A stretch of DNA of 23,209 bases from Ferruginibacter sp. (GTDB lineage Bacteria; Bacteroidota; Bacteroidia; Chitinophagales; Chitinophagaceae), in contig JANXOQ010000512.1 of assembly GCA_025357775.1 (NCBI GenBank), positions 1 to 23,209 of the forward strand, in the 5' to 3' direction. Numbering within the stretch: position 1 is the stretch's first letter; every line of letters starts with the position of its first letter. Positions 3,078 through 16,057 of the stretch are shown here, one piece after another. The position numbers were made by a program, and so were the translations under genes. Under the pieces are notes generated by a model that saw only the letters and a program-made list of their open reading frames with translations, ran no database searches and was not told the DNA's origin.

Positions 3078-3278
3078 TTATCCAATAACAGTTACATTAA
3101 CTGCATTCATTCCTTTTTTACCATTCTGCAATTCAAATTCTACTTTATCACCTTCTTTAATCTCATTGATTAAACCACTTACATGTACGAAGGTTTCTTT
3201 GTCAGAATCATCATGCTTAATAAATCCGAATCCTTTTTCAGAATTGAAAAACTTTACGGTTCCTTGATTTTTGTCCAT
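3078..3278 (-). CDS. Cold-shock domain protein (CspA family)
   Basis: A 66-residue OB-fold RNA/ssDNA-binding protein beginning MDKNQGTVKFFN. RNP1 is KGFGFI (about residues 15-20) and RNP2 is FVHVS (about 30-34), with all the aromatic nucleic-acid-binding residues present. It acts as an RNA chaperone in the cytoplasm. An in-frame ATG lies 11 codons upstream at 3311, but family alignment favours 3278, because csp proteins begin just before the first beta strand. The extra codons also run into the predicted promoter element at 3309-3316. The gene is monocistronic, with its own promoter and terminator. Confidence 0.95.
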   Translation of the reverse strand: MDKNQGTVKFFNSEKGFGFIKHDDSDKETFVHVSGLINEIKEGDKVEFELQNGKKGMNAVNVTVIG

Positions 3279-14876: not shown

Positions 14877-16019
14877 ATGAATTTTAAAATTCTTGCACAG
14901 CAAATAGAGTCTATACATGTAGCCTTACAAACAAAAGCTGTAAATGCAGTAAATACCCATATTACTTTTCGTAATTGGGCAATAGGGTTATACATTTTAG
15001 AGTACCAACAAAAAGGAGAAGATAAAGCTAAGTATGGTAATAAACTATTAGAAAAATTAGCAATAAAATTTAGTAAAACATCTCTTAAAGGCTTAACTGC
15101 TCCAGAGCTTTCCAGATGTAGACAATTTTATATAACGTACCCCTCAATTCTTGGGACAGTGTCCCAAAAATCTGTTATTTCTCAGCTCAATTCTTCAATT
15201 CTTGGGACACTGTCCCAAGAATTGAACCCAATGACAGTAAAGGTTATAGAAGATTGTAAAAAAATAAACCCTACACTTTTTACTAAGCATTACAACCAAT
15301 TATTTTCTACTACTTCTTATTCGCATTTTACAGAATTAATAAAAATAAGCGATATTTATAAACGTACTTATTATGAATTGCTGGTGTGTAAAACTACATT
15401 ATCTGTAAGAGAACTTAGAGATAGCATAAATACACTGTCTTATGAAAGAACAGGGCTATCGAAAAACAAAACTTTATCGTTACAAACAATAGCCAATAAA
15501 ATAAAACCTGCTAAAGCATCTGATGCCATTAAAGATTTCTATTTCTTCAATTTTTTGGAATTAGAAAATGTAGAAGTTGTTGATGAAACAAAATTAGAAA
15601 CAGGTTTATTAAATCATCTAGAAAAATTTATTTTAGAATTAGGAAATGGATTTTGTTTTGAAGCAAGGCAAAAAAGAATACTTATTGGCGATGAATATTT
15701 TTTTATTGACATGGTTTTTTATCATCGAATATTGAAATGCCATGTATTGATAGAGTTAAAAGTAGATAAGTTTAATGCGGTGCATGCTACTCAGTTAAAA
15801 AACTACTTAAAATATTACAACAAATTTGTAAAAACAAAAACCGATAACCCAGCTATAGGTATTTTGTTAGTTACAGATAAAAATAAAGCCTTAGCAGAGT
15901 TCACAGTTGATGGTATTAACGAAAAAATGTTTGTTTCTAAGTATGCCATAGAGCTTCCTACTAAACGACAATTAGAAAATTTTATAAAGAAAGAATTAAA
16001 AAACTATAAGGATTTATAA
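14877..16019 (+). CDS. DUF1016 / YhcG-type PD-(D/E)xK nuclease-domain protein
   Basis: A 380-residue protein. The N-terminal part (about 1-165) is the helical DUF1016_N region, with ITFRNWAIGLYILEYQQKG and the SRCRQFY motif (80-85). The C-terminal part (about 215-375) is a PD-(D/E)xK nuclease fold, with D278 in FIDMVFYH and E293-x-K295 in LIELKVDKF as the metal-binding core. Cellular role is unproven; relatives occur near restriction and mobile elements. The linker between the halves contains two SILGT(V/L)SQ repeats (90-97 and 107-114), each encoded by a DNA palindrome. It lies 45 bp after the PIG-L gene and 80 bp before the symporter, in the same direction. No methyltransferase or specificity gene is nearby. 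Confidence 0.87.
   Translation: MNFKILAQQIESIHVALQTKAVNAVNTHITFRNWAIGLYILEYQQKGEDKAKYGNKLLEKLAIKFSKTSLKGLTAPELSRCRQFYITYPSILGTVSQKSVISQLNSSILGTLSQELNPMTVKVIEDCKKINPTLFTKHYNQLFSTTSYSHFTELIKISDIYKRTYYELLVCKTTLSVRELRDSINTLSYERTGLSKNKTLSLQTIANKIKPAKASDAIKDFYFFNFLELENVEVVDETKLETGLLNHLEKFILELGNGFCFEARQKRILIGDEYFFIDMVFYHRILKCHVLIELKVDKFNAVHATQLKNYLKYYNKFVKTKTDNPAIGILLVTDKNKALAEFTVDGINEKMFVSKYAIELPTKRQLENFIKKELKNYKDL
15143..15171 (+). repeat. Palindromic repeat copy 1 (inside DUF1016 gene)
   Basis: The core TTGGGACAGTGTCCCAA (15151-15167) is a perfect palindrome around one central G. It is the exact reverse complement of the core in copies 2 and 3. The left flank CTCAATTC matches copy 3 base for base, but the right flank is AAATCTG and does not complete the outer arms. 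It encodes ILGTVSQK at about residues 91-98, in frame. Confidence 0.9.
15194..15226 (+). repeat. Palindromic repeat copy 2, perfect 33 bp (inside DUF1016 gene)
   Basis: The 16-nt arms TTCAATTCTTGGGACA and TGTCCCAAGAATTGAA are exact reverse complements around a single central C at 15210. It encodes SILGTLSQEL at about residues 107-116, in the same reading frame as copy 1. A transcript of this segment would form a very stable 14-16 bp hairpin within the coding region. Confidence 0.95.
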
Positions 16020-16026
16020 AAATTTC

Positions 16027-16057
16027 TCAATTCTTGGGACACTGTCCCAAGAATTGA
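16027..16057 (+). repeat. Palindromic repeat copy 3, perfect 31 bp (between DUF1016 gene and symporter)
   Basis: The 15-nt arms TCAATTCTTGGGACA and TGTCCCAAGAATTGA surround a central C at 16042. It starts 8 bp after the DUF1016 stop codon and ends 42 bp before the symporter ATG. It could act as a transcription-ending or attenuating hairpin, but no T run follows. The sequence after it (16058-16083) resembles the coding sequence after copy 2. Confidence 0.95.

Follow-up and report, generated by a model that had tools for sequence, protein, structure and literature searches.

Palindromes inside DUF1016/YhcG nuclease genes co-vary with the encoded protein, which very probably recognises them

Why should a predicted nuclease gene carry the same palindrome twice within its coding sequence and a third time just past its stop codon? 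This arrangement is found in a DUF1016/YhcG gene of Ferruginibacter sp. (Chitinophagaceae), within a 23,209-nucleotide stretch of DNA (assembly GCA_025357775.1, contig JANXOQ010000512.1, positions 1 to 23,209 of the forward strand; hereafter the window). DUF1016/YhcG is a widespread nuclease family of bacteria and archaea without known function, and Escherichia coli K-12 is among its carriers. The relevant features of the window are given below, with palindrome positions counted outwards from the centre.

14877..16019, + strand: DUF1016/YhcG gene, 380 amino acids (DUF1016_N plus YhcG_C, a PD-(D/E)XK nuclease; Pfam, PADLOC)
15102..15116, + strand: codons of residues 76-80 (P76, E77, S79 and R80 here), the putative recognition helix for palindrome positions 5-8 (co-change scan and residue/base tables)
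15143..15171, + strand: palindrome copy 1 (core 15151-15167), in frame, encoding ILGTVSQ
15194..15226, + strand: palindrome copy 2 (core 15202-15218), perfect over 33 bp, in frame, encoding ILGTLSQEL
15321..15323, + strand: codon of S149, putative reader of palindrome position 3 (and 4) (partial Mantel r 0.70; same-branch changes)
15405..15410, + strand: codons of V177 and R178, putative readers of positions 4 and 2 (co-variation)
15522..15974, + strand: YhcG_C nuclease domain, with E237, D278, E293 and K295 present (Pfam and alignment of 189 relatives)
16027..16057, + strand: palindrome copy 3 (core 16034-16050), perfect over 31 bp, non-coding, right after the stop codon

The three copies share a 17-bp core, TTGGGACA-N-TGTCCCAA. 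With up to three mismatches allowed, the window holds just these three matches, far above the expectation from 100 shuffles (mean 0.05, maximum 1), and copies 2 and 3 are perfect palindromes around a single central base, which confirms the original prediction for this DNA in the number, sequence and symmetry of the copies. It was also right in setting two units in frame within the open reading frame (ORF) and the third just outside; the location that it gave for the in-frame units, a linker between DUF1016_N and the nuclease, did not hold, as both lie inside DUF1016_N (residues 10-191; profile 2-137). Copy 3 begins 8 bp past the stop, and the 75-nt stretch around it is 80% identical to the region of copy 2, so that it may be a duplicate of the in-gene segment. 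Both domains of the protein scored above the curated Pfam cut-offs, which places it in the DUF1016/YhcG family (PF17761, E 1.8e-22, 80.3 bits, cut-off 32.8; PF06250, E 1.5e-47, 161.7 bits, cut-off 32.5), YhcG_C covering residues 216-366. The protein is matched by the PADLOC profile PDC-S02, a phage-defence candidate (E 3.3e-107), which accounts for 24 of 25 PADLOC profiles counted per protein among the matches listed; a defence role is a candidate label given through this match. The PDB contains no convincing relative (best E 0.27).

In-gene palindromes in the host genome and across the family

In the whole 2.99-Mb host genome, the core occurs with at most one mismatch only in the three window copies and with two mismatches in two further places. 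A search of 298 genomes from the order, among them the window's, found the exact core in 8 copies in 5 genomes, each copy within a DUF1016 gene or remnant or immediately beside one; the original prediction had pointed to such an enrichment in related genomes as a check. One of these genomes (G293) mirrors the window layout, with the exact core once in the gene and once just 3' of it. Other DUF1016 genes carry different palindromes in the equivalent place. The host genome has six DUF1016 genes, and several distinct palindromes occur in those that were read. Allowing two mismatches, the palindrome from the contig 292 gene was matched only at that gene's locus, by three copies inside it and one on its 5' side. 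The palindrome from the contig 453 gene was confined to its locus at one mismatch, and four matches elsewhere appeared at two. One genome holds three distinct gene-site pairs, each site restricted to its own locus within one mismatch. Because of this confinement in all three host genes, we rejected the earlier proposal of a mobile, dispersed palindrome akin to REP/RAYT or to Rickettsia palindromic elements (RPEs). We also observed two AATT-type palindromes 95 and 72 bp upstream of the DUF1016 gene on contig 453, similar to its own core and not matching it.

The bare 17-mer core is an imperfect marker. It gave three matches in viral contigs, which look chance-like since none of the three is in a DUF1016 gene or has the outer AATT arms. 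A longer palindrome query matched viral contigs twice, both times in DUF1016 genes on contigs already in our sample.

That family sample was drawn from relatives (59 genomes), from the phylum (148 genomes; 30 loci plus further fetched regions, not every match), from the best 80 of 581 loci in named bacteria and archaea, and from 27 viral-contig loci. It comprised 216 distinct DUF1016 frames, 189 of them full length, of which 172 non-redundant genes remained after removal of near-duplicates; archaeal (Methanomicrobium, L112), proteobacterial and viral-contig genes are represented. A palindrome was called when at least 9 of 11 positions were paired around a centre in codon phase 0 at 15-45% of the gene. 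By this rule, 148 of the 172 genes have a palindrome inside DUF1016_N (94 have one, 44 two, 9 three and 1 five). Among the 24 genes that failed, 12 have a weaker (8/11), even-centred or other-phase palindrome by our own reading of the listing. The best perfect palindrome exceeded the 99th percentile of synonymous-codon shuffles in 75 of 172 genes, and 71 of these 75 palindromes lie at 20-40% of the gene. For best centres with at least 10 of 11 positions paired, the three codon phases were populated 132/3/0, the central base falling on codon position 1 in 132 of 135. Good centres were found at 2.32 per kb in the loop region; the remainder of the gene had 0.023 per kb and the flanks 0.058. Since the palindromes were selected by pairing, percentages of pairing are inflated; density, phase and the residue code described below were not so selected.

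The palindromes have a general form of AATT, variable bases, CA-n-TG and then the mirror image, and the unpaired central base is strongly G or C (C 94, G 71, T 13 and A 11 in 189 genes). Copies within one gene are alike, with a mean Hamming distance of 4.6 between 19-mers compared to 10.7 between genes. Comparing 81 copy pairs from 54 genes, we found differences at arm positions 3-6 in 15-22% of within-gene comparisons and in 53-66% of those between genes; positions 7-9 differ in 23-41% within a gene, and the differing pairs are still paired in 16 of 19 cases at position 7, 26 of 31 at position 8 and 19 of 33 at position 9. Of 148 genes, 79 have their first centre 9-10 codons past Y85, and of the 94 genes with a single copy, 38 have it exactly 8 codons ahead of H150. 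The coding position of the site is thus flanked by the two protein parts that apparently read it. Non-coding copies carrying the gene's own core are found both upstream and downstream of genes. Extra flanking copies (up to three mismatches, within 1.5 kb) accompany 7 of 148 genes, compared to 5 hits in 2960 control scans, and a flanking copy was therefore rejected as a general rule. A held-out set of 56 full-length genes, reduced to 45 after removing relatives of the training genes and of each other (other DUF1016 genes from genomes that also supplied training genes are included), gave a palindrome in 41 of 45 genes and best centres in phase 0 in 33 of 33.

A residue-to-base code linking protein and palindrome

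The PD-(D/E)XK protein had been named at the outset as a candidate partner that recognises the palindrome, and co-variation between its residues and the palindrome's bases supports this. With overall protein distance removed, partial Mantel correlations across 148 genes were 0.70 for residue 149 with position 3, 0.59 for residue 76 with position 7 and 0.53 for residue 178 with position 2; the null, 200 random permutations for positions 3-6 only, reached 0.21 at most. In a sliding-window version, the best windows were residues 147-158 (0.22) and 85-96 (0.19; this window contains the palindrome-encoded residues), and all windows of the nuclease domain stayed at or below 0.08. On a tree of 189 genes built with residues 60-205 left out, the classes of residue 149 and position 3 changed on the same branch 31 times compared to 5.9 expected (ungrouped, 26 compared to 6.9), and R76 and G7 did so 28 times compared to 3.6 expected (ungrouped, 29 compared to 11.4). 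Sixty cherries of related genes gave p values of 5e-9 for the pair 149-3, 4e-8 for 76-7, 5e-6 for 79-8, 0.003 for 178-2 and 0.006 for 77-5. When 3179 residue-by-position pairs were scanned, the top four were 149-3, 76-7, 77-5 and 79-8, and 80-6 came tenth.

These pairs translate into rules that held across all 189 genes: R76 goes with G7 (86/89), E79 with C8 (21/21), Y, W, S or F79 with T8 (53/53), G149 with C3 (17/17), S149 with A3 (86/97), T149 with T or G (55/59) and R178 with C2 (126/126), while N77 with A5 (93/121) and R80 with G6 (32/47) are looser. The same preferences appear at four-fold degenerate codon positions (R76 with G7 in 67/69, D76 with C7 in 7/8, E79 with C8 in 18/19, Y79 with T8 in 21/21, N77 with A5 in 82/104 and R178 with C2 in 116/116). 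The window gene fits the code through P76-T7, S79-T8, S149-A3, R178-C2 and E77-G5, the last being a weak rule. In the held-out genes, R76 went with G7 in 20 of 20, R178 with C2 in 21 of 21, G149 with C3 in 7 of 7 and T149 with T or G in 9 of 11, and the modal rule outdid the commonest base for residues 76 (29 compared to 21 of 34), 178 (30 compared to 25 of 38) and 79 (19 compared to 16 of 29).

The code also allows a gene to be matched to its own site. When the tables for seven residues were trained on genes more than 60% different, a gene's own core had a median rank of 5.4% among 112 cores, with 119 of 189 genes in the best 10% and 7 worse than half; at a threshold of 45%, the median rank was 2.7%, compared to 32% for control residues of the nuclease domain. 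The residues were chosen on the same data in this analysis, only the residue-to-base tables being trained on distant genes. Three genes (L094, L102 and L216) carry an AATT-type palindrome in another reading frame, where it encodes other peptides, and their residues 76, 79, 149 and 178 follow the code in 11 of 12 checks, the exception being T149 with C3 in L102; these are 3 of 11 listed centres, used for their AATT-type arms, and the other 8 look chance-like. Held-out genes, dozens of tree branches and the three other-frame genes bear the code out, so the DUF1016/YhcG protein very probably reads the palindrome within its own gene; from one gene to another, the palindrome and its putative reader diversify jointly.

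Reading at the level of DNA is a better explanation of the co-variation than a contact within the protein, because the other-frame palindromes fit the code and non-coding copies carry the gene's own core. That the palindrome-encoded peptide touches residues 76, 79 and 149, making the co-variation internal to the protein, appears highly improbable to us. The nearly constant frame and the exact spacing to H150 in many single-copy genes would suit such a contact and, as each read position alters the peptide via at least one arm, the counts at synonymous sites alone do not exclude it. However, palindromicity at synonymous sites needs a cause at the DNA level (though the palindromes were chosen by pairing), the other-frame genes fit the code with different peptides, and the peptide next to one and the same reader residue varies, R76 for instance occurring with Ala, Pro, Ser, Thr or Arg at codon +2. 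There is likewise little to commend a role as an mRNA hairpin, which the original prediction had offered as an alternative. Copy 3 has a strong predicted RNA hairpin (z -3.75), within-gene differences at positions 7 and 8 mostly stay paired, and G:T (26) and A:C (22) mismatches are equally frequent at position 1 by the centre. Over positions 2-8 and 10-12, however, G:T mismatches, which RNA tolerates as G.U, are more depleted (18 compared to 128 expected) than A:C mismatches (47 compared to 152), which disfavours the hairpin; position 1, which adjoins the centre, and position 9, where T at +9 gives a TAA stop, were omitted from this comparison, and the raw counts over all positions 1-11 were 48 for G:T and 92 for A:C. 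The presence of non-coding copies on both sides of genes also speaks against an mRNA role, as does the resemblance of the code to familiar DNA major-groove preferences such as Arg-G and Asn-A.

Possible consequences of recognising the own gene

The joint explanation that we find best, with roughly equal chances of being right and wrong, is that the gene contains the recognition site of its own protein and that self-regulation is the preferred consequence. Physical binding, as we infer it from these sequence patterns, would involve a DUF1016_N dimer that reads the palindrome with one arm per subunit, with positions 5-8 from the centre assigned to a helix around residues 74-84, and positions 2-4 to residues 149, 177 and 178. 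The site would be encoded between the codons of these two reading parts and, because of this position, reader and site would stay together on transfer and shift specificity together. The protein would sit on its own gene, and on extra upstream or downstream copies where present, and limit its own expression; the nuclease would then form a self-regulating unit of one gene that can move as a whole and probably serves in defence. We rate the chance that self-regulation is the main outcome as slightly less than even. It is preferred because site-specific self-cutting would harm the carrier, gene-adjacent sites exist and the gene travels without a fixed neighbourhood.

Several results weigh against this explanation. 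Residue 153 failed with position 4 on the 60 cherries (p 0.28), the sixth-strongest pair of the scan joins position 4 to L227, which is outside DUF1016_N, and E77 is split between A5 (9) and G5 (10) in the 189 genes. Among held-out genes, S149 went with A3 in 10 of 14 and with another base in 4, the strict modal rule for residue 149 was right in 20 of 32 (commonest base, 10 of 32), and the rules for residues 77 (28 compared to 29 of 38), 153 (14 compared to 14 of 34) and 182 (17 compared to 17 of 20) did no better than the commonest base. Position 9 has no strong reader, and its pairing in 174 of 214 is more than a simple operator for a dimer would need; this hints at a role for hairpin or cruciform forms or at palindrome-correcting mutation. 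Genes with flanking copies are a minority. Finally, the nuclease active site is conserved among the 189 aligned relatives (E237 in 187; D278, E/D293 and K295 in 188 each), which would be needless for a pure regulator.

The kept active site, together with the lack of another close match in the genome, makes cleavage the main rival: the nuclease may cut any second copy of its own gene, recognised by the matching palindrome that this DNA carries, in the service of exclusion of related elements, homing-like gene conversion or gene mobility. We regard this as possible, though on the unlikely side. The inferred site is long and restricted to the own gene within one mismatch, the gene is mobile (its flanking genes are adjacent without it in 26 of 26 relatives, see below), and its specificity diversifies in the manner of self/non-self systems. 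The nuclease domain has also been placed nearest YraN and archaeal Holliday-junction resolvases, with low fold-recognition scores (Kosinski 2005; PMC1189080). Against cleavage, the nuclease would also attack the resident copy, which bears an identical site, unless something shields it; an enzyme that could do so does not lie consistently beside the gene (10 of 124 candidate neighbours scanned), and E. coli K-12 keeps yhcG with its four sites. A different view is that the palindrome DNA of the own gene is an inhibitor that holds the nuclease inactive, so that loss of the gene frees a toxic nuclease in a one-gene addiction unit; this would account for the inseparability of site and gene, the kept active site and the diverging specificities, but yhcG deletion strains of E. 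coli exist, and we consider it improbable. We give still less credence to the gene being a replication or transposition initiator with an origin inside the gene. The lambda O gene has this anatomy, with repeated inverted-repeat origin sites bound by dimers of its own product (PMC6022878). However, the effector domain of DUF1016 is a nuclease, and relatives of E. coli YhcG (E 1e-20) are few on plasmids (421 of 72,556) and in phage records (12 of 50,697), so that the gene is not tied to replicons. It is also a plausible but less than probable view that DUF1016 is a self-contained selfish or defence gene, in which one ORF would hold a rare-site nuclease and its own target; the nuclease might act only on own-gene DNA (self-exclusion or homing) or use its own gene as a safety switch, and specificity would evolve within the linked cassette.

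Known systems, mobility and E. coli yhcG

To our knowledge, no nuclease family is built like DUF1016, with its own putative target inside the ORF; the closest precedents come from replication initiators, namely lambda O and pT181 Rep, the origin of pT181 being located within repC. The pT181/pC221 Rep proteins show plasmid-specific recognition of a palindromic element, with cruciform extrusion at the origin (PMC5775427), and differ from DUF1016 in enzyme class (tyrosyl intermediate) and in their replicon function. Lambda O resembles DUF1016 in having sites for its own product in the gene, as far as co-variation indicates binding in DUF1016, and in DNA-binding and effector parts joined by a linker (PMC6022878); in contrast, the C-terminal part of DUF1016 is a PD-(D/E)XK nuclease and nothing links the protein to replication; its site is encoded within a single domain, flanked by the two putative reading parts, and its code diversifies across bacteria and archaea. 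RPEs are palindromic DNA in frame inside genes (PMC4316617), with units of about 100-150 nt spread over many unrelated genes, whereas DUF1016 palindromes measure about 27-33 bp and occur in one family, in one place, with the putative reader in the same protein; those of the window (31-33 bp) are found with one gene only within one mismatch. The site of a homing endonuclease is the empty allele, broken by the gene, whereas the putative DUF1016 sites are intact inside the gene. REP/RAYT comprises a nuclease family with cognate palindromes that differ between members; DUF1016 palindromes lie inside coding sequence and, in the three host genes tested, are not dispersed over the genome, and Pfam gives no Y1 (HUH) transposase above cut-off in the window protein, only DUF1016_N and YhcG_C. 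Controller (C) proteins of restriction-modification systems autoregulate via a palindrome at their own gene, whereas in DUF1016 the sites lie in the ORF and the reader would be fused to a nuclease.

What appears to be new is the combination of a nuclease, a target within its ORF and a diversifying, self-specific code; if lambda O is counted as the same kind, the novelty is less. In the open-access literature searched, a scope outside which most subscription papers fall, we found no report of an in-gene self-target of DUF1016/YhcG. The results provide a predicted DNA ligand for most members of the family and a residue-to-base code that can be addressed by single-residue swaps, and they raise the question of what the nuclease does on its own gene. 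If binding is true, the family would be a natural library of matched reader-site pairs for the evolution of DNA specificity.

Mobility of the gene is seen at the window locus, where the flanking PIG-L-like gene and symporter gene were both found in 26 of 29 further relative loci, with DUF1016 between them in none of the 26. The gaps at these empty sites measure 9-427 bp in 25 loci and 1275 bp in one, which holds another ORF. In one relative (G323, L298), another ORF of about 305 codons occupies the very gap where the window has DUF1016. The neighbour scan (10 of 124 candidates, chosen from 24 that were listed) revealed no consistent partner gene; the neighbours included type I restriction R and S subunits, a helicase, an integrase and an AAA_21/AbiEii-like ATPase, the rest being housekeeping or other genes. 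A circular record of Bacteroides finegoldii (L321, 4404 bp) carries a DUF1016 gene with an in-frame palindrome together with a regulator, a methyltransferase and, by eye, a recombinase-like fragment. Elsewhere in the window, by eye, a helix-turn-helix protein gene (23-340) is followed by a gene for a HipA-like protein (346-1638), which we take to resemble a HipBA toxin-antitoxin pair.

The yhcG gene of E. coli K-12 carries three in-gene palindromes and a perfect one centred 28 bp past the stop, which makes the proposal testable in this strain. Strains differ in the central base of the 3' non-coding copy and in position 7 of each of its arms, with identical flanks (L219 compared to L225). In strain NR329 (L223 compared to L219), approximately residues 82-135 of yhcG (K-12 numbering) are replaced in a cassette-like manner with nearly identical flanks, and the replaced segment comprises the putative reading helix and all in-gene palindromes. 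Of 5426 E. coli genomes, 4386 gave matches to a 31-nt query containing the 3' palindrome, with 12161 matching places at E up to 10 (not all confirmed at yhcG) and none on plasmids in this search. Broken yhcG alleles were also observed to end at the third in-gene palindrome (L220:5001-5406 in E. coli B C2566 and L221:4001 in E. coli E3; query 406 and 385, respectively); in E3, IS1 lies at this palindrome, and several other listed strains share the end points. In the same E3 locus, just past gltD (approximately 3205-3232), a further yhcG-type palindrome, AATTCGCCAGAC TGT GTCTGGCGAATC, lies upstream of the disrupted yhcG.

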